The notes under the pieces are model-generated. The model ran no database searches. It was not told the DNA's origin and saw only the letters and a program-made list of their open reading frames with translations. The translations under genes were made by a program, and so were the position numbers. Positions 6,702 to 55,802 of a DNA stretch of 64,000 nt are shown here, piece after piece. The stretch is from NCBI GenBank assembly GCA_902782125.1, contig CACZMA010000002.1, forward strand, positions 62,001 through 126,000, written 5' to 3'. Source of the DNA: Oscillospiraceae bacterium. Lineage in GTDB: Bacteria; Bacillota; Clostridia; Saccharofermentanales; Saccharofermentanaceae. Numbering within the stretch: position 1 is the first letter of the stretch; every line of letters begins with the position of its first letter.

Positions 6702-7856
6702 TCAGATATACATTAACAGAACACTTACAGTCAGAGAACCGATACAAGTCCCGATCGCAACGACCAAAAGCGACTTTTCCATAAAACTCAGCGCAAGCGC
6801 GACCGCAAGTCCTGCCACTGCTGCCGGGACGGAACCGGTCGAATAGAGTATCGCAGGAAAGGTCATCGCCGACAGGACCGTATAGGGGATGTAATCGAAG
6901 AAGGCCTTTACTTTCGGGTTGGTGAGCTTACGCCTGAACAGTACAAAAGGCACCATCCTCATAAGGTATGTTGTGACCGTCATGGTGATGAACAGGGGAA
7001 TGAACGTTCCGACGGATACTGTCTCTCTGCTTTCAGACGAGACTGCCGCAGCGGAAGATGACACGTATCCGGGAGCAAAGAAGAACAGGATCGCGATAAT
7101 GGCGGCAAGCAGAACGGCAAGAACGGCAAACGACACACGCCTGCTCATATGCCTTCCCGTAACGGCAACTCCGCAAAGTGCAGCGGTCACAGCTGCGATT
7201 ATTATCGCAAAGCCTCCGGTGATGTGTGAGGAGAGGAAAGGAACATAGTACATCAGTGCCGAGAGTACGCAGGCCAGGACCGCGCTGTTCATTATGACGG
7301 GATCCTTCTTGGTCTGAGGGATGACGATCGAGACAAACATGCCGTAGATGCCTATCGAGAGTGCGTTGGTAAGAAAGTCAGGGAACACGCCTCCCAGAAG
7401 GGCGCCGATAACGGTGCCTCCTGTCCAGCCTATTACCGGCAGGATGGTGAGTCCAAAGAAGTATCTGGCACTTATAGGGTGTTTCCTCGTGATGGCAACG
7501 CCGAAGATCTCATCCGTTATACCGTAGGCGAGAAGTATCCTCATAAGGGGTGTCATGGACGCATCGGTCTTTTGGGAGAGCGCGATACCCATCAGGGAAT
7601 ACCTGAGGTTGATTACGATCTGCGCGATGATCATGGCCACGATCCCGCCAGCACCTGCTATGATGCCGACGCCTGCGACCTGACCTGCGGATGTGACATT
7701 GGTAAGAGAGATAATGCTGGCCTGGATCCAGTTAAGACCTGAAGTGATGGCAAGTATACCGAAGGTAAAGGATACCGACAGATAACCGAGACCAACAGCA
7801 AGACCGTCCCTGAATCCGTCAGAGAAAGAGCCCGACTTCTGCGTATTATCAGCCAT
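6702..7856 (-). CDS. AzlC-AzlD fusion, branched-chain amino acid exporter
   Basis: 384 residues carrying both exporter subunits in one chain. Residues about 1-240 match AzlC (FSDGFRDGLAVGLGYLSVSF at the start, then a string of membrane helices), and about 283-384 match AzlD (MTVTTYLMRMVPF, then FFDYIPYTVLSAMTFPAI). AzlC and AzlD are normally separate proteins that together export branched-chain amino acids or analogues across the cytoplasmic membrane. A helix-containing segment (about 200-280) joins the halves. The ATG lies inside the end of the upstream lipoprotein gene (8-base overlap), so translation is probably coupled. Confidence 0.88.
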   Translation of the reverse strand: MADNTQKSGSFSDGFRDGLAVGLGYLSVSFTFGILAITSGLNWIQASIISLTNVTSAGQVAGVGIIAGAGGIVAMIIAQIVINLRYSLMGIALSQKTDASMTPLMRILLAYGITDEIFGVAITRKHPISARYFFGLTILPVIGWTGGTVIGALLGGVFPDFLTNALSIGIYGMFVSIVIPQTKKDPVIMNSAVLACVLSALMYYVPFLSSHITGGFAIIIAAVTAALCGVAVTGRHMSRRVSFAVLAVLLAAIIAILFFFAPGYVSSSAAAVSSESRETVSVGTFIPLFITMTVTTYLMRMVPFVLFRRKLTNPKVKAFFDYIPYTVLSAMTFPAILYSTGSVPAAVAGLAVALALSFMEKSLLVVAIGTCIGSLTVSVLLMYI

Positions 7857-8460
7857 AGATTGCGACTATCTCATCAAAGGTGAAGTACATATCAAGGTCG
7901 GTCTGCATCTGAGCAGCTGAATCAGAATCGATATCGATGACAGAGATGAGGGTCTTCGTCTCGGGATCGAGTTTATAGACGGTGCCGCCGGTAATATAGT
8001 ACTTCTCGACAGGGTCGTAATCTCCGTTGTTGTATAAGGTAGTACGTGCAAAGATCATGGCATCACCCGTATCGAAATACTCATCTACAACCGTACGGTC
8101 TGCTAAGACCTTCTCCATCTGGAGTGCCCTGTACTTTCCGTCTGCAGATACAGTATATACGGTATAAGCAGGAGTGCCTGCGTAACTAGTTCCGTCTCCT
8201 TCTTTTACTGTAGCTTCATCATGGTGATCGAGCATGTACAGGCTGAGTTCTTCATCGAACTGCTTCATATAAGCGCTGACGGAGTCATATGTAAGTTCCA
8301 CAGAAGTGGCTTCAGGCTGTGAAGCATTCTGCGATGCGGTCATCTCAGGATTGGAATAGAGCTTGTCGTTGTTGCAAGCGGTAAAAGCTGTGAGCATGGC
8401 AGCGGCCACTGCAGCAACTGCTGCTTTCTTAACAAAAAGATCTGTATGAACTGTTCTCAT
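7849..8460 (-). CDS. Putative lipoprotein
   Basis: 203 residues with an Ala-rich signal peptide ending in a lipobox-like FTAC (Cys29), so probably lipid-anchored on the outer face of the membrane. The mature part has alternating charged and beta-strand segments, and no family is recognised. GGAGG lies 6 bases before the ATG. It overlaps the azlCD fusion gene by 8 bases, which suggests a functional link with export. Confidence 0.7.
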   Translation of the reverse strand: MRTVHTDLFVKKAAVAAVAAAMLTAFTACNNDKLYSNPEMTASQNASQPEATSVELTYDSVSAYMKQFDEELSLYMLDHHDEATVKEGDGTSYAGTPAYTVYTVSADGKYRALQMEKVLADRTVVDEYFDTGDAMIFARTTLYNNGDYDPVEKYYITGGTVYKLDPETKTLISVIDIDSDSAAQMQTDLDMYFTFDEIVAIYG

Positions 8461-15870: not shown

Positions 15871-18570
15871 TCAGGTCGAACTGTCCCTTAACTTAGAATA
15901 CTGCCGGATCTCGTCTGCGATCTGGGAGTTAATGGACTGGATCATTTCTTTGGCAGGCATTGCCACATAATAACCCTGCAGGAGATCGACTCCGAGCATG
16001 ACGACCGTCTTCAGTTCCTCGGCCGTCTCGACTCCTTCCGCAAGTGCGACTATGCCGTTACTGTGCGCGAACTCGATAACATCCTTCACGAAATGCTGTT
16101 TCTGGGGACTGTCCTGAATACCCGACAGAAGGGCACGGTCGATCTTCACATAATCCGGAGTATATCTTAAGAGGTTGGATACATTTGAATAGCCGGTACC
16201 GTAATCGTCGACGGCGGTCTCGATGCCCATTCTGTTATATGTCTCCTTCATGTGTTCAAGCTCGCCGTCAGATATCTCTGACTGCTCCGTGAGCTCGACT
16301 ACGACAGAGTCGGGCATTGAAGCGATCAGGTCTTCGAGCATGCTGATATCCTTGTCCGAGAGCATGTGGCCGGGGATGGAATTGATGAAGATCTTCTTGC
16401 CGTCAGACAGGATGGCTCTATGCCTCTTCATCTCATCGATGACATTGGAGAAGGTCAGTCTCTCGACATCGTCCAGCTTGTCATAGAAATCAGAATACCT
16501 GAGGATTACCGGAGGCGGAAGATACGGATCGGAATCAGCTCTCATGAGCGCTTCGTATGAATAGATCTTCGCGGTCCTGGCATCGACGATCGGCTGGAAA
16601 TGATACGATATCCTGTTCTCGGTGATGATCTGCAATACCTCGCGGGCTTCCTTCTGCTCTTCTTCCGTAAGATTCTCACGGGAGAGCCTGAGACGTTCGA
16701 TCTTGCTCGCGTTCTTGCGGCCGATCGCCACGTTGACCAGTTTCTCCACATCTTCAGTCGTCTCGGGACTTCCGAAGTCGGTGCCATAATATAGCTCGAC
16801 ATTGTATTCGTGCGCTTCGTTGGAATTCGATATCATGTCAAGGAGCTTGTCTCTTTCCTCTAGAAGTTCGCGGTCATCGGGATCTCTGGTTATGCGCAGA
16901 GCTACGAGTTCGTCATTGGCAGGTCTGAAGCACAGGCAGTTACGTGAAGAGAAGACATTCTCCAGTACGCTTGCGACGTTTACTATAACATTGTCGCCTT
17001 CCTGACGACCGAAAGCATTGTTGATGGCAGACAGGTTCTTGACGTCTATCGCAAGCGCTCCCATGTATCCGCCGTTGTTGTGCATCATGTGCAGGAATGT
17101 CTCGGCCTGCTCCAGGAAGCCCTTGTAAGTCAGCAATCCGGTCAGGTTATCGGTGGTGATGCCTCTTCTGGCGATCTTGGAACTGCTTATGATGTTGTCG
17201 CTTCGTCTGAAACACTCGAATCCTCTGCAGATAGCTCTGAGCCATGCGCGGTATTCCGCCGATATAACGACGGGCCTGTTGTCGAATCTGACTGATGCAT
17301 ATCCGAAGACGCTGGAGTCGAAGAAGATCGGCATGAAGTAATATACCGAAGGCTTCCCGCGTGCTTCGAAGAGTTCCGGAAGCATGACCGCGCTGTTGAT
17401 CATAGTATCCGTCATGATCTTGTCATTATTCTCATGTTCGGCACCGCATTTGATGACGTGCATCATTCTGTTCTCGAATGTATCGTCCGAATCTCCTAAT
17501 GACGGATTAACGCAGAGGTTGAAGCTGTCGAAGCCCCTGATCAGATGAATGGAACTGAAGATCGTTCCGATGAGACCTGAGAAAGAGGTCTGTCCCATCA
17601 GGTCTTCATCCAGGTGATTGAATGGAGAGAACAAAGATGACAGGGACAATTCCGTATCCCAGGAATCTCTCTTGTAGTAAGTCGGCCTGGCGCTGTCGCA
17701 GTCACATCCGCATGTGCCGCCGATGAACATCTCGGGAGGGACCTTGGCTGTCTCTGCTTCGGTACCGGTTATAAACGCGTGTGCCATAAGAGCCGTGTTG
17801 ATGCCGAGTTCGGTCGATGATAACGGGATCGAGGTCAGAGGTACGGGCGCATGTCTTCCGTCCTCGTTGGAATCGAAGCCCACCACAACGATATCTTCCG
17901 GTATCGAATAACCGTTGGCGGTCATGACTTTCGCGAAGCCCAGAGCCATGCAGTCATTAGCGCAGGCAAGTGCCTCGGGAAGCTTCTCTCCGCTCTTGAG
18001 CCAGCTGTCGGCCAGACTCTCGCCGCTCGTGTACCAGAAGTCGCCGTAGAATACCCGGTTCTCGTTGAACTCTATGCCGTGCTCTGACAGAGAATCCTTA
18101 TAAGCATTGAGCCTTATTATCGAATGCGGATGCCAGGACTTGCCCGTAAGGAACGCGATGTCCTTTAATCCGTGCTTCTCTATAAGGTGGTCTATGACCA
18201 TCTTCTCCGGCGTGTAGTTGTCTATGTGAATGGAAGGGAAGTATTTGCTGTCCTTGTCGACAAAGATGACCTTGCCTTTGTATCTGCCGTGAAGGTCTTC
18301 TTCGATCTGCTCGGACAGGCCCTTGGTCTGAATGGTATCTGCAAGGACCACGATGCAGTCAAAATGCTCGTAGTTGATAAGCTTGTAGATGGAGGAATCA
18401 CCGAGTGCGCGTCCCTGTGTATTCTGGTATTTGATGTACATGGCGAAGACGGCCACATCGTAATCGCGCCTGAACGCTTCCTCAAGAAAACCCTTAAGGA
18501 ACAGAGACTGAGTGAACTCCTCAGGCTGCGCGATAAGTACTGCTATCTTCTTACGGCCATTCTCCATCAT
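15871..18570 (-). CDS. Signalling protein: LacI-type sugar-sensor domain, degenerate GGDEF, intact EAL
   Basis: 899 residues with no membrane helix. Residues about 8-290 form a periplasmic-binding-protein/LacI-type ligand domain (IPEDIVVVGFDSNEDGRHAP, SIPLSSTELG) without the HTH. A GAF-like region (about 310-460) follows, then GGDEF (about 475-620) whose active-site motif reads RPANDEL, so cyclase activity is unlikely. EAL (about 645-890) keeps EALMRAD, FINS, ELTE, DDYGTGYSN, KIDR, AEGVE and QGYY, so c-di-GMP phosphodiesterase activity is likely. A cytoplasmic ligand, perhaps a sugar, may control the enzyme (inference). The start could be either of two adjacent ATGs. Confidence 0.88.
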   Translation of the reverse strand: MMENGRKKIAVLIAQPEEFTQSLFLKGFLEEAFRRDYDVAVFAMYIKYQNTQGRALGDSSIYKLINYEHFDCIVVLADTIQTKGLSEQIEEDLHGRYKGKVIFVDKDSKYFPSIHIDNYTPEKMVIDHLIEKHGLKDIAFLTGKSWHPHSIIRLNAYKDSLSEHGIEFNENRVFYGDFWYTSGESLADSWLKSGEKLPEALACANDCMALGFAKVMTANGYSIPEDIVVVGFDSNEDGRHAPVPLTSIPLSSTELGINTALMAHAFITGTEAETAKVPPEMFIGGTCGCDCDSARPTYYKRDSWDTELSLSSLFSPFNHLDEDLMGQTSFSGLIGTIFSSIHLIRGFDSFNLCVNPSLGDSDDTFENRMMHVIKCGAEHENNDKIMTDTMINSAVMLPELFEARGKPSVYYFMPIFFDSSVFGYASVRFDNRPVVISAEYRAWLRAICRGFECFRRSDNIISSSKIARRGITTDNLTGLLTYKGFLEQAETFLHMMHNNGGYMGALAIDVKNLSAINNAFGRQEGDNVIVNVASVLENVFSSRNCLCFRPANDELVALRITRDPDDRELLEERDKLLDMISNSNEAHEYNVELYYGTDFGSPETTEDVEKLVNVAIGRKNASKIERLRLSRENLTEEEQKEAREVLQIITENRISYHFQPIVDARTAKIYSYEALMRADSDPYLPPPVILRYSDFYDKLDDVERLTFSNVIDEMKRHRAILSDGKKIFINSIPGHMLSDKDISMLEDLIASMPDSVVVELTEQSEISDGELEHMKETYNRMGIETAVDDYGTGYSNVSNLLRYTPDYVKIDRALLSGIQDSPQKQHFVKDVIEFAHSNGIVALAEGVETAEELKTVVMLGVDLLQGYYVAMPAKEMIQSINSQIADEIRQYSKLRDSST

Positions 18571-32716: not shown

Positions 32717-33697
32717 TTACTCGTACTCGACCGTAGCGGTAGGCTTCGGCGTGTAGTCATAAAGAACTCGGTTGATGCCGGGAACTTCGTGTGTGATACG
32801 GTCAGTGATGCGGCACATGAGGTCGTAATCGATGGGCTCGACCGTGACCTGAACAACGTCTGTCGTGTTGATCGCACGGACGATGCAGAGCCATTCGAAA
32901 GCTCTCTTGCCGTCCTTGATGCCTGTTGACTTGAAGTCGGGAACAACAGTGAAGTACTGCCATACCTTGCCTGCAAGGCCTGCCTTCTCGAATTCTTCTC
33001 TCAGGATCGCATCAGACTCTCTAACAGCTTCGAGCCTGTCTCTCGTGATCGCACCGGGGCATCTTACGCCGAGACCGGGACCCGGGAACGGCTGACGGTA
33101 TACCATGTTGTCGGGCAGACCGAGAGCGGAACCTACTACGCGGACCTCATCCTTATAGAGGTACTTAACGGGTTCTACCAGCTCGAAATCGAGTTCCGGG
33201 GGAAGACCGCCTACATTGTGGTGAGCCTTGATGCCCTGCTCGCTCTCGAGGATGTCGGGATAGATTGTACCCTGAGCGAGGAAAGAGATCCCGTCGAGCT
33301 TGGCTGCTTCTTCCGCGAAGACCTTGATGAACTCTTCGCCGATGATATGACGCTTCTGCTCAGGATCCGTAACGCCTGCAAGAAGATCCAGGAATCTGTC
33401 TGTAGCATCGATATATATGAGGTTAGCCTTAAGTTCGTCTCTGAAGACCTTGCATACCATCTCGGGCTCGCCCTTACGGAGAAGTCCGTGATTAACATGT
33501 ACGCATACGAGGTTGTCGCCGATAGCCTTGATAAGGAGTGCTGCGACTACAGAAGAGTCAACTCCGCCTGAGAGGGCAAGGAGAACCTTCTTATCTCCGA
33601 CCTGCTCCTTGATCTGTTTGATCTGGTCTGCGATGAACTCATCTGCCTGAGCTTTGGTTGTGATCCTTTTGAGGGATTCCGGTCTTACATCTGCCAT
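32717..33697 (-). CDS. guaA: GMP synthase ATP-pyrophosphatase subunit, without a glutaminase domain
   Basis: 326 residues covering only the ATP-PPase and C-terminal dimerisation parts of GuaA. The PP-loop is SGGVDSSV; VNHGLLRKGE, LAQGTIYPD, RQPFPGPGLGVR and the C-terminal EPIDYDL are typical. It adenylates XMP so ammonia can replace the oxygen, giving GMP. Most bacteria fuse this to an N-terminal class I amidotransferase (about 525 residues in all). Here translation starts with a good GGAGG at the ATPase part, as in two-subunit archaeal enzymes. A separate glutaminase is not in the window. Confidence 0.92.
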   Translation of the reverse strand: MADVRPESLKRITTKAQADEFIADQIKQIKEQVGDKKVLLALSGGVDSSVVAALLIKAIGDNLVCVHVNHGLLRKGEPEMVCKVFRDELKANLIYIDATDRFLDLLAGVTDPEQKRHIIGEEFIKVFAEEAAKLDGISFLAQGTIYPDILESEQGIKAHHNVGGLPPELDFELVEPVKYLYKDEVRVVGSALGLPDNMVYRQPFPGPGLGVRCPGAITRDRLEAVRESDAILREEFEKAGLAGKVWQYFTVVPDFKSTGIKDGKRAFEWLCIVRAINTTDVVQVTVEPIDYDLMCRITDRITHEVPGINRVLYDYTPKPTATVEYE

Positions 33698-35376: not shown

Positions 35377-36555
35377 ATGGGTCTTTCTGAAAAAGAGAAC
35401 AGTTCTTTTCCAAAGGAGACTGAGACGAGGGTGCGCCCCGGTTCTCAGCTTGCTCCGGAAAACAAAACGACTGAGTCTGCGGCTTCCAGGCACGCGGCAG
35501 TTAAGACCACACCCAAAAAGACAAGATCCAAAAAGAGAGCAGACAAAGCAGCCGACGATCATACCGGCAATTATGCTGCCAGGATAACCCCCAAGGCATA
35601 TGAGACATTGGTGCCCGGCGATATCCCCGAGTTCGAAGACACTCCGGAGAGACGCGCTCTTGTAGAGAAGCGCAAGAAGGGCCGCTTCATGAGAAGGTTA
35701 AGGGACTGGGGTATCTTTACGGGATATCTGACGCCGAGCTTCCTCGGAGTTCTGGTGTTCTTCTTCCTGCCTCTTATCATGCTGCTCTTTACTTCATTCC
35801 AGAAGTCTCCTACGAATACTGATTTTGTCGGTTTCCGTAACTATGAGAGAGTCCTGACGAATGATGCTTTCATAGCGGCTTCGAAGAATACACTTACATT
35901 CGCGCTCATATCGGTTCCGCTTGCCGTAGTGCTCGCGCTGTTCCTCGCCATGCTCCTTAACTCGGGTCTGCCGGGTAAGTCAGTATTCAGGAGCATCCTG
36001 CTCAACCCCATGATGGTTCCGGTCGCATCCGTCGTTCTCATCTGGCAGGTATTCTTCTCATACAACGGCGTCATCAACGGATGGACTGCACAGTTCTTCC
36101 AGCTCGATAAGATAGACTGGCTCAAATCCCAGTATGCTCAGGTCGTAATAATGCTCTTGTTCCTGTGGAAGAACCTGGGCTATAACATGGTGCTCTTCCT
36201 GGCGGCATTGAATGCGATCCCGGGCGAGATACTCGAATCCGCTTCGCTGGACGGCGCAGGCCCGGTCAAGCGTTTCTTTGCGATCAAGCTCCACTACCTC
36301 AGCCCGACGATCTTCTTCGTCGGCATCATGTCGCTTATTAATTCATTTAAGATATTCAGAGAGGTATATCTTCTCACGGGTGATTATCCGTTCGATAACC
36401 TGTACATGCTGCAGCACTTCATGAATAACAAGTTCACGCAGCTCGACTACAGCCTGCTCTCTTCTGGCGCCATCGTAATGTGCATCGTGATGATCATCAT
36501 CGTCGGTGTACTGTTCTATGCCGAATCCAGATTCGATTCGGATGTGGAGGAATAA
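35377..36555 (+). CDS. MalF-type sugar ABC permease with long N-terminal extension
   Basis: 392 residues. The first ~110 residues are charged and disordered, unusual for this family. Six membrane helices follow, with TPSFLGVLVFFFLPL at the first and the EAA loop EILESASLDGAGPVKRFFAIKL, which would contact an MsmK-type ATPase. With the next gene it forms a heterodimeric permease of a carbohydrate ABC importer. No solute-binding protein or ATPase gene is in the operon; the downstream partners are HlyD- and MacB-like. Confidence 0.88.
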   Translation: MGLSEKENSSFPKETETRVRPGSQLAPENKTTESAASRHAAVKTTPKKTRSKKRADKAADDHTGNYAARITPKAYETLVPGDIPEFEDTPERRALVEKRKKGRFMRRLRDWGIFTGYLTPSFLGVLVFFFLPLIMLLFTSFQKSPTNTDFVGFRNYERVLTNDAFIAASKNTLTFALISVPLAVVLALFLAMLLNSGLPGKSVFRSILLNPMMVPVASVVLIWQVFFSYNGVINGWTAQFFQLDKIDWLKSQYAQVVIMLLFLWKNLGYNMVLFLAALNAIPGEILESASLDGAGPVKRFFAIKLHYLSPTIFFVGIMSLINSFKIFREVYLLTGDYPFDNLYMLQHFMNNKFTQLDYSLLSSGAIVMCIVMIIIVGVLFYAESRFDSDVEE

Positions 36556-36558
36556 ACT

Positions 36559-37614
36559 ATGGACGCTGAACTGAGGAAACAACGCAGACTGGCCGCTACC
36601 AAAGCGAGACGTAACGTATTTACCGAGACGGTACATCCGAAGTCGTATTTCGAGCTGATGACGGATGAAGAGCGCGAGGCGTTCTTCGCAAGAGAGAGGA
36701 AGAGAAGCACTACTGCCCTGAAGCAGAGGAAGATCAGGAAGACCATCCTGACTGCGATCGGACTTGTCATTGCATGTTCGATATCGCTCCTTGCCTTAGT
36801 GCCGATATTCTTTACTTTCCTTAACTCGTTCATGTCATCGGATGAGATCATATCCAACTACTCCGTTATCTTCCAGAGTATGTCAGGACACAACTCATCG
36901 GGCGCGACATACCTGTCACGCACACCGGTGCTCAAACTCATCCCTGAAGAAGTAACCATCAAGCAGTACACAACGCTGCTGTTCATGAACCCGGCATATC
37001 TGTTCAAGTTCTGGAATTCGATCATCCTTACTCTGCCCATCGTCGGAGGACAGATGGCGGTTGCGTGCCTTGCATCTTATAGTTTTGCCAGATACAGGAA
37101 GAAGAGGAGAGAGGTATTATTCTTCTCATATATCATCCTCATGCTCATGCCTTTCCAGGTAACGCTCGTCCCGAACTACATGATCGCGGACACATTGGGG
37201 ATCCTGAACACATATTGGGCAATCATACTCCCGGGCGTGTTCTCGACATTTGCCATCTTCCTTCTTACCAAATACATGAGGCAGATACCTTCGGGTTATA
37301 TCGAGGCCGCAACGATAGACGGTGCGACCGAATGGCAGATATTCACCAAGATAGCCATACCGCTTTGTAAGAACGCCATATTCGCGTTGACGATACTTTT
37401 GTTTATAGACTACTGGAACATGGTCGAGCAGCCGCTCGTCCTGCTCACCGATACGGAGCTTCAGCCTCTTTCGGTGTTCCTTGCGCAGATCAATGAGCCG
37501 GAGATAGGCATTGCCTTCGCGGCGTCGGCAGTATATATGATCCCGCCTCTGCTGATATTCCTCTGGGGTGAGGAGTACCTGGTAGAAGGTATCTCGAGAT
37601 CGGGAATCAAGTAA
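36559..37614 (+). CDS. MalG-type sugar ABC permease
   Basis: 351 residues, six membrane helices, and the EAA loop YIEAATIDGATEWQIFTKIAIP near the C terminus. The N-terminal ~60 residues are highly basic and unusually long. GGAGG is 8 bases before the ATG, and 3 bases separate it from the MalF-type gene. An insertion of about 35 residues between the first two helices (about 100-135) is longer than is typical. Confidence 0.88.
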   Translation: MDAELRKQRRLAATKARRNVFTETVHPKSYFELMTDEEREAFFARERKRSTTALKQRKIRKTILTAIGLVIACSISLLALVPIFFTFLNSFMSSDEIISNYSVIFQSMSGHNSSGATYLSRTPVLKLIPEEVTIKQYTTLLFMNPAYLFKFWNSIILTLPIVGGQMAVACLASYSFARYRKKRREVLFFSYIILMLMPFQVTLVPNYMIADTLGILNTYWAIILPGVFSTFAIFLLTKYMRQIPSGYIEAATIDGATEWQIFTKIAIPLCKNAIFALTILLFIDYWNMVEQPLVLLTDTELQPLSVFLAQINEPEIGIAFAASAVYMIPPLLIFLWGEEYLVEGISRSGIK

Positions 37615-37627
37615 CGGAGGATTAAGT

Positions 37628-39352
37628 ATGAAGAACAGACGTAAGACTATTATCAGGATCATGGTGGCATTCGTCGCCGGTCTCGCACTTCTGACGTTTT
37701 TCTCGAACACGATCATGAATCTTACCATCCCTAAGGTTATGGGTGAGTATGCGACAAGAGGCAATCTGGCGTATACGAATACCGCGACAGGTACCATCAA
37801 GGTCGAGAACGAGACCAAGATTACGGGCGTCGAGGGAAGGACGATCGATAAGATACTGGTGTCCAGCTACGATACTGTTAATGAAGGCGACGTTATTGCT
37901 ACCCTCAAGCCTGTAGAGAATTCCGATGATCTCAAGGAGCTCCAGGCACAGCTGCTTACTCTCCAGCGTGAGAAGGAATATGCAGAGAGAGCACCGAGTT
38001 CGAACACTCTTACAACATATGAGCAGGCCGTGGATACAGCACAGGATACGCTCTCTGAAGCTCAGGAAGCGCTTACTGCCGCGCAGAACAAGCAGGCAAC
38101 CATAGATTCTGCAGATGCTACGATCCTTGATCAGTCCGCTCAGCTCGCAGAATATCAGTCAGCACTTGATTATGCGACAGCAGAGAAGGCAGGTTACGAA
38201 GACCAGATCAAAGCCATCGATGACAGCATCAAGCCTCTGGCTGACCAGATAACGATATACCAGTCATACGGATATCAGATCACCATTGAGGAAGATACCG
38301 GTTACTACAGATTTACGGATCCCGATACGGGACTGACAGAGTCCGATCCCGTCGGCACAACTCCCGTTACGGACGGAGAGAAGATCAGAGAACTTTGTTA
38401 TCAGATCAATCAGTATATCGATGCAAAGGCACCCATCCAGTCCGACCTCGATGCGGCACAGGCAGTGATCGATTCCAACAGTGCTTCGATCGCAGCCTGC
38501 GAGCTCGCCATCACCAATGCAGAGACTGCAAAGGAAGCAGCCGAGGCTCTTCCTTCCGTATCAGATGCACAGAAGTTGGTCGATACGGCCCAGACAGGTC
38601 TGTCAACGGCGCAGCAGTCACTGTCTGACGCACAGGTCAATGCAGGTATCGAAGCAGATAAGGCTCAGGATGCCGCAGACGACAGAGACAAGTCGATCGA
38701 AGAGCTCGAGACCAAGATCGCAGAGCTTGAGGCCAAGATCGAGCAGACTGAGATCAAGGCACCTGCTTCCGGTTATGTCTATAACATCTCCATCGAAGAA
38801 GGTTCCGTAATGGAGAAGAACCAGACGATCGCATATGTGATTCCTGTTGATGACAGACAGTGTACGGCTACATTCACTTTCCCTTCGGAAGTGGCATCAA
38901 GGCTTTCCATTGGCGACGATATGGACGTAACGATGGGTTATGTTGATTCCTGCACTATCATCAACATCAAGCCTGATCCGGATAATCCGAGAGAATACAA
39001 GCAGGTTAAGTGTGCGATCAACGATGCATATGCTTTCCCGGGCGAATCGATCACGGTACGTGCCGATAAGTCAAACAAGGATTACGAATGCGTTATCCCG
39101 TCCAGTGCGGTCAATAAGGATAATTCAGGTTACTTTGTATATCAGATCATCGGATCTTCATCTCCGCTCGGTGATAAGTACACCGTTAAGCGTGTAGATG
39201 TAACTGTTGAGGACGATGACGGTACATATGCAGCTATCTCCGGCGAGAAGCTCGACAAGGATGCAATGATCGTTGTCAGGAGCGAGAAGCCTCTCGAAGA
39301 CGGCGAGCGAGTCAGACTTGAAGACTTTGATTCTGACAAGAAGAAAACCTGA
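37628..39352 (+). CDS. HlyD/RND-type adaptor (membrane fusion) protein
   Basis: 574 residues. One N-terminal TM (about 10-30) anchors an extracytoplasmic protein with two lipoyl halves: GTIKVENETKITGVEGRTI, then VSSYDTVNEGDVIATL, and after the coiled coil IKAPASGYVYNISIEEG. These flank a long coiled-coil hairpin (about 100-375) interrupted by a small insertion. C-terminal beta-barrel segments follow. Such adaptors couple exporters to outer components. Here it sits 13 bases after a MalG-type importer subunit, which is unusual. Its specific role is unknown. Confidence 0.85.
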   Translation: MKNRRKTIIRIMVAFVAGLALLTFFSNTIMNLTIPKVMGEYATRGNLAYTNTATGTIKVENETKITGVEGRTIDKILVSSYDTVNEGDVIATLKPVENSDDLKELQAQLLTLQREKEYAERAPSSNTLTTYEQAVDTAQDTLSEAQEALTAAQNKQATIDSADATILDQSAQLAEYQSALDYATAEKAGYEDQIKAIDDSIKPLADQITIYQSYGYQITIEEDTGYYRFTDPDTGLTESDPVGTTPVTDGEKIRELCYQINQYIDAKAPIQSDLDAAQAVIDSNSASIAACELAITNAETAKEAAEALPSVSDAQKLVDTAQTGLSTAQQSLSDAQVNAGIEADKAQDAADDRDKSIEELETKIAELEAKIEQTEIKAPASGYVYNISIEEGSVMEKNQTIAYVIPVDDRQCTATFTFPSEVASRLSIGDDMDVTMGYVDSCTIINIKPDPDNPREYKQVKCAINDAYAFPGESITVRADKSNKDYECVIPSSAVNKDNSGYFVYQIIGSSSPLGDKYTVKRVDVTVEDDDGTYAAISGEKLDKDAMIVVRSEKPLEDGERVRLEDFDSDKKKT

Positions 39353-39363
39353 CGGGGGACAAA

Positions 39364-40674
39364 ATGGCTTTTAAAGACACCATCAAAGAATACTTCCTCG
39401 AGACGGGAACCCTGAACAAGAAGAGGATCAAGAAGATAGTCCTTGCCGTTCCGTTCTGGGTAATACTTGCTGCGGTCATCCTGATCGCTGCAGGATTCAT
39501 AAGGATATCAGTCCTGACCAGGGCAAGACAGGAACAGTATATGGCAACATACTGGGGTCAGGGTGCTGATGTCGATTACAGGCAGATGAGCGTTTTCGCG
39601 AGGGGCGCGAGACCGGTCGATGACACGACGCCTCTGATGTACGTAAGCTCGGACATCTCCCTGCGCAAGGCGGATATTCCGGTCATCAGAGCGGCTATCC
39701 AGGGTACGGTGGATGCTTCCAATCAGAACCTGCCGGATAAAGCCAAGGGCCTCGATACCGACGGTTCGCCTAAGGGATGGGAAGATGCATTCTCTTCAAC
39801 AGTTATGGCGAATGTCACTCTGGTATATGAGGAACCGGGCAACACAGACAAGATAATCCCCAACACCGATGCAGAGATCGTCGGCGTCGGCGGCAATTAC
39901 AAAGCTTTTCATCCTTTCAGGTTCCTCTGCGGCGGCTTCCTTCCGGAAGAACAGATCGACAGGAATCAGATAGTCATAAATGACATCATGGCATGGTATT
40001 TCTTCAAGTCATATGATGTCTCCGGACGTAAGCTCACACTTGGTAACGAGACTTTCACCATCATCGGTGTAGTCGAGGAACTGAACACTTCCATCGACGA
40101 CCTTGCAGGTGCAGACAAGCCGAGGGCATATATCTACTTTGACAGACTCATGCTGCTCGTTCCCGCTGATGCGGCTTCTGCGGCAGGTGCAGGTGATGCT
40201 GCCACTTATGATGCGATGGATCCCGCTGCTTCTGCAGCTCCCGCATCAACATCCGATGTACTGGCCATCCAGTGCTATGAGGCGATGATGCCGGAACTCG
40301 TCAGCGGAGTGGCCATAACAGACATCAAGAGCGCGCTCCCGACCTATGCCCTCACTGATCCTAAGATCTTCGTACTCAGCAATACCGACAGATATACTTT
40401 ATTGAGTGTTTGGGACTGGGTATTCCCTCTCGGCGAGACACAGAGCCAGCTCACCGGTTATGAGCTTCCCTATTGGGAGAGAGCTGCCCAGATCACGGTC
40501 ACGAGAGTGTTCTATGACATGGTGATGATCTTTGCCGGCTTCATCCTTCTCATCATCGGCGGCATCATGGTCTTCCTCAGATTCCGTAAGCCGAAGCCTG
40601 CAGAAGCTTCTGCTGAAGAGGCAAAGGATAAGTCCGAAGAAGAGATCAAACTCCTCGAGGAACAGACCAAATAA
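39364..40674 (+). CDS. MacB periplasmic-core-like membrane protein with only two TM helices
   Basis: 436 residues. TM1 (about 25-47), a large extracytoplasmic domain (about 48-375) with MacB-PCD-like features (NQIVINDIMAWYFFKSYDVSGRK, ETFTIIGVVEEL), and TM2 (about 385-408), followed by an acidic tail. True MacB/FtsX permeases have four TM helices and a cognate ATPase; here the C-terminal TM bundle is missing. It probably pairs with the HlyD-type protein (spacing 11 bases). It may be a scaffold rather than a transporter (inference). Confidence 0.78.
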   Translation: MAFKDTIKEYFLETGTLNKKRIKKIVLAVPFWVILAAVILIAAGFIRISVLTRARQEQYMATYWGQGADVDYRQMSVFARGARPVDDTTPLMYVSSDISLRKADIPVIRAAIQGTVDASNQNLPDKAKGLDTDGSPKGWEDAFSSTVMANVTLVYEEPGNTDKIIPNTDAEIVGVGGNYKAFHPFRFLCGGFLPEEQIDRNQIVINDIMAWYFFKSYDVSGRKLTLGNETFTIIGVVEELNTSIDDLAGADKPRAYIYFDRLMLLVPADAASAAGAGDAATYDAMDPAASAAPASTSDVLAIQCYEAMMPELVSGVAITDIKSALPTYALTDPKIFVLSNTDRYTLLSVWDWVFPLGETQSQLTGYELPYWERAAQITVTRVFYDMVMIFAGFILLIIGGIMVFLRFRKPKPAEASAEEAKDKSEEEIKLLEEQTK

Positions 40675-42515: not shown

Positions 42516-45140
42516 ATGGGAAAAAGACTTACAGTAACGGCGCTCGTTTGCGCTTTATTGCTCCAGGCAGGTTGTGCCGCTAACACTCAGCCGGAAGAAC
42601 CGATGGCTTCCGCTCCTTCTGCAGAGAGCGCAGCCGGATCTCCGGCTTCATCTTCTGCCGCAACAGAGCCTTCAACATCAGAAACTGCTGAGGGACTGTA
42701 TCCGTCATCGTATCTCGATACGGGCAATCTCACCGAGTTCGGAACAGGTTATGAGGGAATCGAAGGTACCGGTGATTTTAACTACGGCGAAGCACTTCAG
42801 AAGTCAATACTGTTCTATGAACTACAGAGGTCCGGAGATCTGCCGACAAAGGTCAGATGCAACTGGCGCGGAGACTCGGGTCTTGATGACGGCGCAGATA
42901 ACGGACTGGATCTTACCGGCGGATGGTACGATGCGGGAGATAACGTAAAGTTCAATCTTCCCATGGCTTATTCGGCTGCAATGCTCGCATGGTCCGTATA
43001 TGAGTACGGTGATGCGTACGAAGAAGCAGGCCAGACCGAGTACATCCTGGGTGATATCAAGTGGGTGTGCGATTACCTTATCAAATGTCATCCGGAAGAC
43101 GAGGTCTATTACTATCAGGTAGGAGATCCCAACGCGGATCACTCCTGGTGGGGTCCTGCGGAAGTCATGGCAATGAGCAGACCCAGCTACAAGGTAACAT
43201 CCGATAATCCGGGTTCCTGTGTTACCGGCGAGGCTGCGGCAGCACTGGCGGCAGCGGCGATCGTTTTCGAAGAGTCTGATCCGGCGTACAGCAGCGAGTG
43301 CCTCGAACATGCGAAGAGCCTGTTCGAGTTTGCGAATAAGTACAGGAGTGATTCGGGATATACCGCTGCGAACGGTTTCTACGATTCGTGGAGCGGATTC
43401 TACGATGAGCTTGCCTGGGCGGGCGCGTGGCTGTATCTCGCTACGGGCGAGCAGGAATACCTGGACACCGCGGAGGAGTGCTATCCTCAGGCATCACAGG
43501 ATTACAACTGGTCTATGTGCTGGGACGATGTTCATATAGGTGCAGCAGTCCTCCTCGCGCAGATAACGGGCAAGGATACATATACCAATGCCGTCGAGAA
43601 GCACCTTGACTGGTGGACCACGGGAACATCTGACGGAGATAAGATAACGTACACACCCGCGGGTCTTGCATGGCTCGATTCGTGGGGTTCTCTCAGGTAT
43701 GCGACGACGACGGCTTACATAGCAACGGTATACAGCGGATCCGACTGCTGCGATCCGGCCAGGGTTGATGATTATATCTCTTTCGCGGAAGCGCAGTGCA
43801 ACTATGCGCTAGGATCTTCCGGAAGATCCTATATGGTCGGCTTCGGTGAGAATCCTCCCGAACATCCGCACCACAGGACGGCGCAGGGTTCATACTGCGA
43901 CAACATGAACGAACCTTCCGCTCACAGGCACACGCTGTACGGCGCGCTCGTCGGAGGACCTGACAGCAGCGACGGTTATTCGGATGATGTTTCCAACTAT
44001 ACGAACAACGAGGTCGCATGCGATTACAATGCCGGCTTTACCGGGCTTCTCGCATATATGTACTCGCAATACCACGGCCAGACGCTGAAGGATTTCGGTG
44101 CGGTCGAGGCGATAGATGAATATGAGTACTCGGTCGAGGCAGCGGTCAATGCTTCCGGTGATGACTTCACGGAGATCAAGGCGATCGTTTATAACATGAC
44201 CGCATGGCCGGCAAGGAACGCGACTGATGTGGAGATGAGGTATTTCTTAGACCTCTCGGAGATCGTTGAGGCAGGCGGAGATCCGTCTTCGATAGAGATC
44301 ACGGCAAACTACATGCAGTCAGGTACGGTGGACGGGCTCAAGGTATGGGATGAGGAGAATAACATCTACTATCTGTCCGTGCTGTTCAATGACGGTCAGC
44401 TCTATCCGGGCGGCCAGTCGCAGTATAAGTCGGAGGTTCAGGTAAGGCTTACTTATTCAGGCGGCCCCTGGGATCCTTCCAACGACCCTTCGTACGAAGG
44501 CCTGGCCACCGGAACGGCTTCTCTTGATACGAACATTGCTCTGTATGAGGGCGGAAATCTTGTGTTTGGCACGGAGCCTCCGGCAGGCGATAATGCAGGC
44601 CAGAGCGTGGTAATAAGCGGAGCTTCGGCATCTTCAGGTTCTTCGTCCTCAGGCAGTACCGGCTCGTCTTCATCTTCTGCGGGCGGAAGCGGTGAGTCCG
44701 GAGATCTGTCACTGTCCGTCAAATACGACAGCAGCGGCGGCAACAGCATATCAGGATCCATGGAGATCAAGAATCTCAGCGATTCAGCCATAAGCTTCTC
44801 AGGACTTGAACTCAAGTACTATCTGACCAACGATTCGGGTTCAGCCATGACATTCGACTGCTACTATGCAGGAATGAACGGAGCTGACGGCGCGTATTCC
44901 GAGGTGAAGGGCATCAGCGGTACATTCGAAGATGCTTCCGGAACTGATGCCGATACCTGCCTTGTCATGTCCTTCCCTTCGTCGGGAACCATAGACAGCG
45001 GCGCCACGGTTACGGTGAACTTCTCGATCCATTATTCCGACTGGTCGAACATGACCACATCGAACGACTATTCGATGGCGGATGTCGGCAACATCGTTAT
45101 CGTATCCGGAGGAAGTGTCATCTACGGCACGGAGCCGTAA
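42516..45140 (+). CDS. Lipid-anchored GH9 cellulase with two CBM3 modules
   Basis: 874 residues. A lipoprotein signal ends in LLQAGC (Cys20), then a Ser/Ala/Pro spacer. The GH9 catalytic domain (about 85-535) contains GGWYDAGDNVKF (the DAGD Asp pair), PEHPHHRTAQGS and NYTNNEVACDYNAGFTG with the acid Glu. A CBM3c-like module (about 545-690) is joined by a Ser/Gly linker to a second CBM3-like module (about 733-874). GH9-CBM3c enzymes are processive endoglucanases. There is no dockerin or SLH domain; the enzyme is held on the membrane by lipid rather than in a cellulosome. A GAGG site precedes the ATG. Confidence 0.95.
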   Translation: MGKRLTVTALVCALLLQAGCAANTQPEEPMASAPSAESAAGSPASSSAATEPSTSETAEGLYPSSYLDTGNLTEFGTGYEGIEGTGDFNYGEALQKSILFYELQRSGDLPTKVRCNWRGDSGLDDGADNGLDLTGGWYDAGDNVKFNLPMAYSAAMLAWSVYEYGDAYEEAGQTEYILGDIKWVCDYLIKCHPEDEVYYYQVGDPNADHSWWGPAEVMAMSRPSYKVTSDNPGSCVTGEAAAALAAAAIVFEESDPAYSSECLEHAKSLFEFANKYRSDSGYTAANGFYDSWSGFYDELAWAGAWLYLATGEQEYLDTAEECYPQASQDYNWSMCWDDVHIGAAVLLAQITGKDTYTNAVEKHLDWWTTGTSDGDKITYTPAGLAWLDSWGSLRYATTTAYIATVYSGSDCCDPARVDDYISFAEAQCNYALGSSGRSYMVGFGENPPEHPHHRTAQGSYCDNMNEPSAHRHTLYGALVGGPDSSDGYSDDVSNYTNNEVACDYNAGFTGLLAYMYSQYHGQTLKDFGAVEAIDEYEYSVEAAVNASGDDFTEIKAIVYNMTAWPARNATDVEMRYFLDLSEIVEAGGDPSSIEITANYMQSGTVDGLKVWDEENNIYYLSVLFNDGQLYPGGQSQYKSEVQVRLTYSGGPWDPSNDPSYEGLATGTASLDTNIALYEGGNLVFGTEPPAGDNAGQSVVISGASASSGSSSSGSTGSSSSSAGGSGESGDLSLSVKYDSSGGNSISGSMEIKNLSDSAISFSGLELKYYLTNDSGSAMTFDCYYAGMNGADGAYSEVKGISGTFEDASGTDADTCLVMSFPSSGTIDSGATVTVNFSIHYSDWSNMTTSNDYSMADVGNIVIVSGGSVIYGTEP

Positions 45141-52396: not shown

Positions 52397-54430
52397 TCAC
52401 GCTCTCTTCTTCTTTACGATATATATAGTTATGGGTATCGCACACAGTGCGAGTCCTATGGTTGATATTGTAATTCCGGTATAGAAGCTTTTCTCGACAT
52501 ACTTTACATTAATGTGATGTGTTCCGGGAGGACATTCGACTTCCATTTTCCAACCATTGCCGACAGGCTTGATATCGGCGGGACTGCCATCGATGTATGC
52601 GTAAAAATATTCGTCAAACGAATAATTCATAGTAATCTTACCACCGCCAAAATCGGACGGAGTCGTTAGTTCAAGACTGTTTATCTTCTGCTCGAGTGGT
52701 ATCTCTCTGTTTGATTCATCATATGCAAGCGGCTTTGCATATACATCTTCAAAGATGATCCTTTTGTCATCTGCCGCCGCCTTTGTAATCCCATATTGAG
52801 CAAAGTAATCTGTAAAGTAATCTTCATAGTAGATTTCAGTCACATACCATCTGACCGACTGACTTCTCATATCTTCTATGAATCCCGGATATGGTTCAGT
52901 CAGATCACCGGGGACATAACGCATATGTGAGTAGAAATCTGAATAAGCATAAATATCATTCTTCATTAAAAAACCACAGTAACCGCTGGCATTGTTAAAC
53001 CCATAGTAGGAGGCAAGGTCAAAGGCTAAGGTAGAAGTAGTATCCATCATCACGAGTCCGCTCTCGGGATCAATATCGACCACATTAAACTGGACAGGCA
53101 CATATCTTCCGACAGAGAGGCTTTCTGTGAATTCCTCTTTGAACGGGACCTCGCTGGTGCGGATTATGGCATTAGTCTTCAATGGAGTCAGAATGAATAT
53201 GCCGAGAAGACTTATTACTTGGAGAACCAAAAGTGACAAACGGACAACGGTAAGGTCGTTTTTGAATCTTTGCTTAAAAAAGCGTTCCAGCACCGTCATT
53301 GCCAGTGAGGATATGATGATCACTGCCGATACTGTTATTATCGTTAGTTTATGAGCCCATCTGAATCTGTTAAGAATAGGAATGAGATATATTATCCTGT
53401 TGAAAGAAGTACTGAACATCCAAAGGAGTGTTAATAATACGACGGGAAGGGCGGCAATGATCCCGATTAGCTCTTCCCTGTATGTATCGAAATATCTTCT
53501 GCGGGCAATGGCAGCAATTACCAATGCTATTCCTATAAAAGTAAACAGTACGGATATCAAACCGCAGAATCCTACATCTGTCTTAAAACTGGTCTCTATG
53601 AAATCTTCAAAAGAAAGTTTGTCGGAGCGTTCGCTTATCGACATCAGATCAAGCATCGGAAGCATTAGCGGCAAGCTTGCCAGAGCCACAATTATATAAG
53701 TAATCAAATACTCTCCTATGAGATGGAAAGCAGGTTTAATGCTATTTGTATTCTTATCCCTTGAGAGGAGGGTATAGGTAAGCACGAATATAAAGTCAAA
53801 GATGGCAGAATAGACAAAGAACTGCGGATGTCCACAATAAAAAAGTGCGATCCTGGGGATAACAGCCAAAAGAAGATTAAATACCGAATGCTTTTGATGG
53901 AGTTTTAAGAGTCCATAGTAGATCCAAGGCAAAGCGGCTGTTGTCATCAAAACGATAATCCATGAATCTCCGATATAGATATTGTAAGTATTAAGATTCC
54001 AACCTATTGCTCCGATGATTGCGGGCATTCTCGTGCATCCCAGCAATCTGAGCAAAATGTAAGCCCCCAGAGAACCGATGATAATGAGAATAATAGCCAT
54101 AATATCGATTACGGCATCAAAATGTCCGAAGATGATCTGACTGACCAATGCTGCCAAATACACCAACAGATTCAATGAACCCGTCTGCCCGGTACCTATG
54201 AACCGCTTGCCGCAGAACTCATGGAAATTGTAAAACGGGAACTCGCCATTGAGTACAGATCTGACAGAATACTTGTACATACAGAGGTATGCATCAGCGT
54301 TATCGTCTTGCAGGAAGAAGTAAGGATAACGGAGCTCAAGAAACGCAAAGAATACCAGACATATCAGTAAGATTACTGCAATGTCGATGTAATACTGCTT
54401 TTTGTCAGGTATACTTGCCTTATTATTCAT
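52397..54430 (-). CDS. YfhO-family membrane protein, coupled to the SCIFF maturase gene
   Basis: 677 residues with about 12 membrane helices (about 15-440), an extracytoplasmic domain (about 440-645) and a final helix. The C-terminal FDEYFYAYIDGSP and CPPGTHHINVKYVEK segments match the YfhO end pattern. It is shorter than the homologue at 45166-47979. The start overlaps the SCIFF maturase stop by 8 bases, so it is co-translated with that gene. A role in SCIFF handling is possible but unproven. Confidence 0.82.
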   Translation of the reverse strand: MNNKASIPDKKQYYIDIAVILLICLVFFAFLELRYPYFFLQDDNADAYLCMYKYSVRSVLNGEFPFYNFHEFCGKRFIGTGQTGSLNLLVYLAALVSQIIFGHFDAVIDIMAIILIIIGSLGAYILLRLLGCTRMPAIIGAIGWNLNTYNIYIGDSWIIVLMTTAALPWIYYGLLKLHQKHSVFNLLLAVIPRIALFYCGHPQFFVYSAIFDFIFVLTYTLLSRDKNTNSIKPAFHLIGEYLITYIIVALASLPLMLPMLDLMSISERSDKLSFEDFIETSFKTDVGFCGLISVLFTFIGIALVIAAIARRRYFDTYREELIGIIAALPVVLLTLLWMFSTSFNRIIYLIPILNRFRWAHKLTIITVSAVIIISSLAMTVLERFFKQRFKNDLTVVRLSLLVLQVISLLGIFILTPLKTNAIIRTSEVPFKEEFTESLSVGRYVPVQFNVVDIDPESGLVMMDTTSTLAFDLASYYGFNNASGYCGFLMKNDIYAYSDFYSHMRYVPGDLTEPYPGFIEDMRSQSVRWYVTEIYYEDYFTDYFAQYGITKAAADDKRIIFEDVYAKPLAYDESNREIPLEQKINSLELTTPSDFGGGKITMNYSFDEYFYAYIDGSPADIKPVGNGWKMEVECPPGTHHINVKYVEKSFYTGITISTIGLALCAIPITIYIVKKKRA

Positions 54431-55802
54431 CTCCCGGTTTCCTGATATCTGAAGTTAACAGCTTCACTGCGATCGCACACTCTATTCGCTTGCAGAACAG
54501 CTTACAACCGTAGTCGTATACGCCCAGGATGTCCCCTGTCGCATGGTATGCGTTTGCCGCACAACCTCCGGAGCAGTACAGCTTTGCCCAGCACTCCTTG
54601 CACTCGGGCCTGCTGTAAGCATTGCACGAAGCGAAATGCGTTCTCATATCAGTATTGGTGACACCCTGGTAGATATCGCCCATCTTGTATTTCTCGTCGC
54701 CTACGAACTGGTGGCAGGGGTAGAGGTCTCCCCACGGCGTTACCGCGAGATACTCAGTTCCGGAACCGCACCCTGCGACCCTCTTGTAGATGCAGGGACC
54801 GCATGTAAGATCCAGCATGTAGTGGTAGAACGTGAAGGGGCGGCCTTCCTTGTGTCTCTGCACCATCAGCCTGGCAAGCTCGTCATACTGCTCGAAAATA
54901 ACGGGCAGATCCTCTTCTGTCAGGGCAGAAGGAGAAGACGGGTCGGTTACGACAGGCTCCATGGACAGCTCGTTGAATCCGAGGTCCAGATAGTGCTTGA
55001 TGTCGTTAAGGAAATCCGGATTGTAATGCGTATAAGTTCCGCGGATGTAGTAGCTCTTGTTTCCTCGCTTGGATACGAACCTCTGGAAGTTGGGAACGAT
55101 CTTGTCGTAAGAACCGTTGCCGGCATAATCCACTCTGAATCTGTCGTTGATTTCTTTACGTCCGTCGAGTGATAGAACGACATTGTGGAATTCCCTGTTG
55201 GCAAATTCCGTGACCTCATCGTCCAGGAGCACGCCGTTGGTCGTGAGGGTGAACCTGATGTTCTTGTTGTGGATCTTCTCCTGCTCTCTGCCGTATTCGG
55301 TGAGGCGCTTGACCACATCCCAGTTCATCAGCGGCTCGCCGCCGAAGAAATCTATATCAAGGTTCTTATGGTAGCCCGAATTCTCGATGAGGAAATCTAT
55401 CGCGCGCTTACCGACCTCATAGCTCATGATCGCACGCTCGCCGTGGTATTTGCCCTGGCTTGCAAAGCAATAGGAGCAGTTGAGGTTACAGGTGTGGGCC
55501 ACATGCAGGCACAGTGCCTTGATGGTGAAGTTCCTCTTCCTGAAGTCTCTGGCAAGTCCCTCGAACTTGTCGGGCGCATACAGTTTGCCGGCTTCCTTAA
55601 GGGAATCGATGTCCGCCAGGCATTCCTCAGCTTCTTCGCGGGTAATGCCGTGTTCGGAGACCGCCTTGGAGATAACATCTTCCGCAGGCTCGGTCTCATA
55701 CCACCTGATCATGTCATAAGCAACGGGATCGACCATGTGGATCGAACCCGAATGACAATCGAGCACTATGTTAAGTCCGTCAAACTGATAGCAGTGAATC
55801 AT
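54423..55802 (-). CDS. scfB: SCIFF radical SAM maturase with SPASM domain
   Basis: 459 residues. An N-terminal peptide-binding (RRE-like) region (about 1-85), the radical SAM core with CNLNCSYC (Cys for the 4Fe-4S cluster), FFGGEP and a C-terminal SPASM domain holding many Cys (CGPCIYKRVAGCGSG, CNAYSRPECKECWAKLYCSGGC). The family installs thioether bonds from Cys to nearby residues in SCIFF peptides (ranthipeptides). The substrate gene lies immediately upstream, beyond a terminator. The ribosome site is weak (GGTTGG). Confidence 0.96.
   Translation of the reverse strand: MIHCYQFDGLNIVLDCHSGSIHMVDPVAYDMIRWYETEPAEDVISKAVSEHGITREEAEECLADIDSLKEAGKLYAPDKFEGLARDFRKRNFTIKALCLHVAHTCNLNCSYCFASQGKYHGERAIMSYEVGKRAIDFLIENSGYHKNLDIDFFGGEPLMNWDVVKRLTEYGREQEKIHNKNIRFTLTTNGVLLDDEVTEFANREFHNVVLSLDGRKEINDRFRVDYAGNGSYDKIVPNFQRFVSKRGNKSYYIRGTYTHYNPDFLNDIKHYLDLGFNELSMEPVVTDPSSPSALTEEDLPVIFEQYDELARLMVQRHKEGRPFTFYHYMLDLTCGPCIYKRVAGCGSGTEYLAVTPWGDLYPCHQFVGDEKYKMGDIYQGVTNTDMRTHFASCNAYSRPECKECWAKLYCSGGCAANAYHATGDILGVYDYGCKLFCKRIECAIAVKLLTSDIRKPGDE

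Follow-up and report, generated by a model that had tools for sequence, protein, structure and literature searches.

In a window of 64,000 nucleotides from an Oscillospiraceae bacterium (GenBank assembly GCA_902782125.1, contig CACZMA010000002.1, positions 62,001 to 126,000), four adjacent genes, P1 to P4, of this Clostridia genome of the rumen type probably encode those components of a distinct type I ATP-binding cassette (ABC) importer that sit in the membrane or face the wall; the importer would be similar to the carbohydrate uptake transporters of family CUT1 and fitted with a MacA/MacB-like collar. The unit appears to be an ABC sugar importer of a kind not yet described, because the pairing of importer permeases with an HlyD/MacA-type adaptor and a MacB-core protein recurs across bacterial families, usually beside a binding protein of its own. 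Chance arrangement is excluded, since the order P1-P2-P3-P4 was found again in more than 50 loci. The features of the operon are listed below (aa, amino acids; TM, transmembrane).

35377..36555, + strand: P1, MalF-type permease of 392 aa (BPD_transp_1), conserved in first position in the unit
36235..36324, + strand: EAA loop of P1, ESASLDGAGPVKRFFAIKLHYLSP (motif ESASLDGA, residue 287 of P1)
36559..37614, + strand: P2, MalG-type permease of 351 aa (BPD_transp_1), assigned to a distinct clade
37303..37392, + strand: EAA loop of P2, EAATIDGATEWQIFTKIAIPLCKN (motif EAATIDGA, residue 249 of P2)
37628..39352, + strand: P3, HlyD/MacA-type adaptor of 574 aa with a single N-terminal TM helix (TIGR01730, HlyD_3, HlyD_D23)
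37922..38749, + strand: predicted coiled-coil hairpin of P3, residues 99-213 and 249-374, with a tip beta-hairpin at 217-230 (AlphaFold2 model m491d9dc8a26f)
39364..40674, + strand: P4, MacB-core protein of 436 aa with two TM helices and without an ATPase domain (MacB_PCD)
39823..40143, + strand: MacB_PCD segment of P4, conserved core around FHPFRFLCGGFLPE...IVINDIMAWYFFKSYDVSG (Pfam match)

The four genes share the forward strand and are separated by 3, 13 and 11 bases, exactly as an earlier reading of the letters alone (the sequence-only reading) had described, and its statement that no binding protein, ATPase or regulator is encoded within the operon (35377-40674) also holds. Its assignment of the first two genes to importer permeases also stands. 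P1 and P2 match Pfam BPD_transp_1 above cut-off (2.9e-11 and 1.4e-17, respectively), and both contain an EAA loop, the expected contact for a MalK-type ATPase in type I importers. The best NCBIfam model for P1 is of the UgpA type and falls below the equivalog cut-off. Basic N-terminal extensions, reported previously for both permeases, are present, although that of P1 is restricted to its own genus: the extension is about 110 residues long, with 26 lysines or arginines among the first 110 residues, and the first TM helix starts at residue 121 as compared with residues 17-47 in the P1 proteins of the system from the other families listed. In eight genomes, identity to the window P2 is 47-57% over about 280-300 residues for the MalG of the unit (100% in the own genome) and does not exceed 34% for the other MalG proteins, of which a single genome has as many as 19. 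A tree of 58 MalG sequences places the 34 unit-associated proteins in one group (support 84/95); row L057_1, the MalG of a neighbouring conventional transporter, lies outside these 34. Judged from these identities and this tree, the unit MalG is a distinct clade.

P3 scores 98.3 bits against the NCBIfam model RND_mfp (TIGR01730; cut-off 94.9), also matches Pfam HlyD_3 and HlyD_D23, and has one predicted TM helix, at its N terminus. Its PDB relatives in a profile search are an RND membrane fusion protein, EmrA, HlyD and MacA. The long helices of the AlphaFold2 model mostly have a predicted local distance difference test (pLDDT) score above 80, and the rest of the model is unreliable. Each arm of the hairpin comprises about 115-125 residues, which at 0.15 nm per residue predicts a length of about 17 nm, compared with 7 nm for the stem of the Escherichia coli MacA hexamer (PMC5985334). 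An above-threshold family match and a confidently modelled hairpin thus agree with the earlier identification of a membrane-fusion adaptor with a long coiled coil. In relatives, the region at the tip varies and is rich in Thr and Pro. A correlation of P3 length with binding-protein length (Spearman 0.41, p 0.04, uncorrected for relatedness) is weak and was not used.

The match of P4 to Pfam MacB_PCD (PF12704) spans residues 154-260 and scores 33.8 bits (cut-off 27), and MacB is its sole PDB match in a profile search. Two TM helices are predicted, at residues 25-43 and 387-405, so that the fourth gene was correctly described as a MacB-like core with only two such helices; the same predictor finds four in canonical MacB permeases. 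The number varies among P4 proteins: those of families f1, f29, f42 and f110 have two, those of f3 have three or four, and the remainder have five or six. True MacB permeases are separated with full support from the 34 P4 proteins, all of which fall in a single clade. A MacB-type ATPase adjoins P4 at none of the loci inspected; such an ATPase, together with an adaptor, does lie beside the canonical four-TM MacB permeases (L064, L065, L159-L162). P4 is unlikely to act as a MacB motor here because of this deviating TM count and because no MacB-type ATPase lies beside it.

Among 59 relatives, 32 have P4. The unit occurs in about 30 genomes of the own genus, with a constant P1-P2-P3-P4 order where inspected and differing flanking genes. 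A search for this order among Clostridia, proposed with the sequence-only reading, showed that it recurs across families: strong P4 matches were obtained in f29, f42, f72, f24 and f28 by a class-wide profile search, and every one inspected has the same arrangement, with a few broken at contig ends. A phylum-wide search added f110, f158 and f90, and the CbpC sequence as query contributed f55, f218 and f219. Outside the genus, all strong P4 matches inspected (f3, f24, f28, f29, f42, f72, f90, f110, f158, f55, f218 and f219) retain the order, which places the unit in at least 12 families of the phylum besides the own genus. A divergent unit with its genes in this order is found in Subdoligranulum variabile from the human gut (record OY725868; MalG 36.5% identical, P4 1e-9). 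On the evidence of this distribution, the association of importer, adaptor and MacB-core is ancient and forms a genuine conserved unit.

Binding proteins adjoin the unit in f3, f29, f42, f24, f28, f55, f72, f90, f110, f158, f218 and f219, and in many genomes of the own genus. Two forms were seen. Large binding lipoproteins of about 700-900 aa have a solute-binding domain in the C-terminal half, for which the clear best PDB relative is CbpC (7x0o, 2.5e-20; next 1e-6), preceded by an extra N-terminal domain. A simple CbpC-like neighbour of 440-500 aa is present in f28, f55, f90, f158, f219 and parts of f24 and f218. The N-terminal half of the large form (about 400 residues) gave nothing significant by Pfam, PDB profile search or self-comparison; our guess by eye, from a repeated GD.IY.....G...VYSF..DGS pattern, is a beta-propeller. 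The own genome (G000) contains seven copies of the large form, none adjoining the operon, and relatives contain up to 19.

G000, about 800 aa each: C2:142560, C8:13457, C10:233, C11:20129, C13:49828, plus two more

Of these own-genome copies, the five that were inspected have lipoboxes, share 27-36% mutual identity and are without adjacent permeases. The large binding protein is present in all 29 same-genus genomes with P4. Among the six without P4, four have no strong binding-protein match, and the other two are 80 and 84% complete; this co-occurrence gives a Fisher p of 2.9e-4, uncorrected for relatedness. Separately, proteins of 866-915 aa with two tandem CbpC-like binding domains were observed (G082:C1:461814-464183, G840:C40:46425-48863, G827:C13 and G830:C31), and several binding-protein genes surround the operon in family f28.

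In eight loci (L137, L138, L153-L158) of four families (f24, f110, f158, f90), the gene immediately after P4 encodes a MalK-type ATPase, and that of L137 has the Pfam domains ABC_tran and OB_MalK. The own genome has a single strong MalK/MsmK-type match (G000:C2:134732-135832), about 33 kb from the operon and 55% identical to the L137 ATPase. An unlinked ATPase is also a property of known systems with a multitask ATPase (PMC7658222). The sequence-only reading held that a binding protein and an ATPase just outside the operon in relatives would tell against it, and this is largely what was found, in 12 families for the binding protein and at eight loci for the ATPase.

The nearest described case is transporter C of Clostridium thermocellum, the CbpC operon (Cthe_2125-2128 / clo1313_2783-2786; PMC9601137, PMC8303734, PMC11212667). 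Genome G399, with a binding protein 100% identical to the solved CbpC, has the order CbpC, MalF, MalG, HlyD, MacB-core. C. thermocellum CbpC has 460 aa and lacks the extra N-terminal domain, unlike the large binding proteins of the window genome, and P4 of its locus has about six TM helices as compared with two in the window P4. In G399 the adaptor gene of this locus lies in two overlapping frames (L198:8085-8987, 300 aa, and 7634-8092, 152 aa); the locus may therefore be degenerate or its sequence faulty. In the legend to Fig. 1 of PMC9601137, 'acra' is defined as a gene of the C. thermocellum sugar-transporter clusters drawn, and the main text of that paper makes no mention of HlyD or MacB. 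CUT1 importers with a multitask ATPase (MalFGK2, Bacillus subtilis MsmX; PMC7658222) resemble the unit in their EAA-loop permeases, lipoprotein binding protein and unlinked ATPase, but the unit differs in its constant HlyD adaptor and MacB-core and in having many binding proteins per channel. MacAB, YknXYZ and Streptococcus pneumoniae Spr0693-0695 (type VII; PMC5985334) likewise have a MacA-type adaptor with an N-terminal TM helix adjoining a MacB-core, whereas the unit has no MacB-type ATPase, a P4 with two rather than four TM helices, and a link to an importer. In MacAB-TolC, the MacA ring is seated on the periplasmic domains of MacB (PMC5985334). We found no paper in the open-access literature that describes HlyD, a MacB-core and a sugar importer as one system.

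A collar on an importer is the most economical interpretation of these data because P4 is unlikely to be a MacB motor and because the constant partners are importer parts. It is further supported by the retained gene order, by the single groups that P2 and P4 each form, by the mirrored pairwise distances of the four proteins, and by the linkage or co-occurrence of binding proteins and a MalK-type ATPase with the unit. P1 and P2 would form the translocation channel, working in the import direction and energized by a shared multitask MsmK-type ATPase encoded elsewhere (G000:C2:134732-135832). Substrate would be brought by lipoprotein binding proteins, mostly of the large form with a CbpC-like C-terminal half, with seven of these serving one channel. 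P3 and P4 would be the motorless descendants of a MacA/MacB pair and most likely form a complex with the channel as a collar beside or above it, in which P4 may be an extracytoplasmic platform and P3 a tube or tower, hexameric by analogy, whose hairpin of about 17 nm would extend towards the wall. Such a collar could guide or dock the binding proteins as well as the oligosaccharides, which are probably fragments of plant beta-glucans. GH9 (glycoside hydrolase family 9) and GH94 neighbours point to such fragments as candidate substrates. More speculatively, the unit could represent a new class of ABC importers whose sugar channel carries a wall-spanning, motorless MacA/MacB-like tower, the import counterpart of tripartite efflux pumps; we hold this stronger version only tentatively. 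It is likewise possible, though doubtful, that a tower receives oligosaccharides, or docks many different lipoprotein binding proteins, away from the membrane. The gene association itself is visible at the CbpC locus. The unit would be categorically new only if the collar proves to be a working part of import.

Several observations weigh against the importer with a collar. After inactivation of transporter C, C. thermocellum grew without a defect on glucose, cellobiose and Avicel, and none of the sugars assayed was bound by CbpC, whose pocket is blocked by a loop (PMC9601137); these results argue against a simple cellodextrin role. Binding of glucose and cellodextrins by CbpC was reported by one study and contradicted by a later one (PMC9601137, PMC11212667). 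No obvious glycosidase lies beside the five own-genome binding-protein copies inspected. The AlphaFold2 model of P4, made with the window, L031 and L032 sequences, reached a pLDDT of 33 and was not used for a fold search. Finally, the correlation of 0.91-0.95 between the pairwise distances of the four proteins over 30 loci, which speaks for a single system, can also arise from vertical inheritance alone.

Alternatively, P3 and P4 may serve only as a scaffold that anchors the importer to peptidoglycan or localizes it, without guiding substrate or binding proteins. The length of the P3 hairpin and its variable, Thr/Pro-rich tip would suit this role, as would the binding of peptidoglycan by purified YknX, a Gram-positive MacA-like adaptor, and the S. 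pneumoniae MacA channel, the height of which matches the zone between membrane and wall (PMC5985334). We nevertheless consider it unlikely, because a scaffold alone would not explain why the large binding-protein family co-occurs so tightly with P4, nor why the MacB-core is constantly retained. A separate exporter or stress-response pair, merely co-transcribed with the permeases and borrowing an ATPase from elsewhere, is suggested by the homology of P3 and P4 to the exporter parts MacA and MacB. Such a pair is improbable given that the P1-P2-P3-P4 order is constant across more than 12 families, that the in-operon ATPase is of the MalK type with no MacB-type ATPase there, that the window P4 lacks two of the four TM helices of MacB, and that the P4 and P2 clades coincide. 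The sequence-only reading had proposed a mixed assembly in which adaptor and MacB-core replace or shield the binding protein, drawing on the lack of a binding protein inside the window operon. Its mixed assembly survives as a genuine conserved unit, but replacement is scarcely credible when most relatives have a binding protein beside the unit and the own genome has seven copies.

The genes around the operon differ among genomes. Flotillin and a lipoprotein cellulase had been taken as a surface-glycan context for the window operon.

42516-45140 of the window: GH9 cellulase, a lipoprotein in which two stretches match CBM3; 106 bases separate it from the preceding flotillin gene

This context is confined to near relatives. 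Flotillin is a neighbour only in the two closest (L031 and L032) and was rejected as a general functional partner; the GH9 cellulase is a neighbour in no relatives beyond the five closest, and in L033-L035 it immediately follows P4. As both are confined to the nearest relatives, they say little about the whole system. GH94 phosphorylases occur in clusters near the unit, and upstream of it in Subdoligranulum. Among the relatives inspected, the upstream flank is pykA/guaA in one subclade and large lipoproteins in another. The downstream flank is GH9 in some, ferredoxin oxidoreductase genes together with a transglutaminase-like protein in others, and in still others a second transporter accompanied by GH94; a trans-2-enoyl-CoA reductase neighbour is also clade-dependent, like the transglutaminase-like protein and the ferredoxin-oxidoreductase subunits. 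MalF-type permeases of 808-915 aa were seen at L042:3328-5949 and as homologues in L037, L041, L047, L054, L056 and L057, with the permease domain only at the C terminus, several hundred extra residues before it; they belong to a conventional transporter that neighbours the unit and has a binding protein and GH94. Elsewhere in the window, on the reverse strand, are a GMP synthase of 326 aa (32717-33697) with the ATP-pyrophosphatase and C-terminal domains only and no glutaminase domain, of similar length in many same-genus relatives; an 899-aa protein (15871-18570) with a LacI-like sugar-binding domain fused to GGDEF and EAL, possibly a sugar-responsive c-di-GMP switch; and a radical SAM protein (459 aa) adjoining a 677-aa protein without a Pfam match (52397-55802).

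Exporters are, to our knowledge, the systems from which adaptors of the efflux type are known. A conserved adaptor-bearing importer, if confirmed, would change the view of how oligosaccharides pass the Gram-positive wall, and the unit occurs in many families of Clostridia, including gut, rumen and cellulolytic species. It would also give a context to the unexplained 'acrA' among the sugar-transporter genes of C. thermocellum, and would account for orphan families of large binding lipoproteins.

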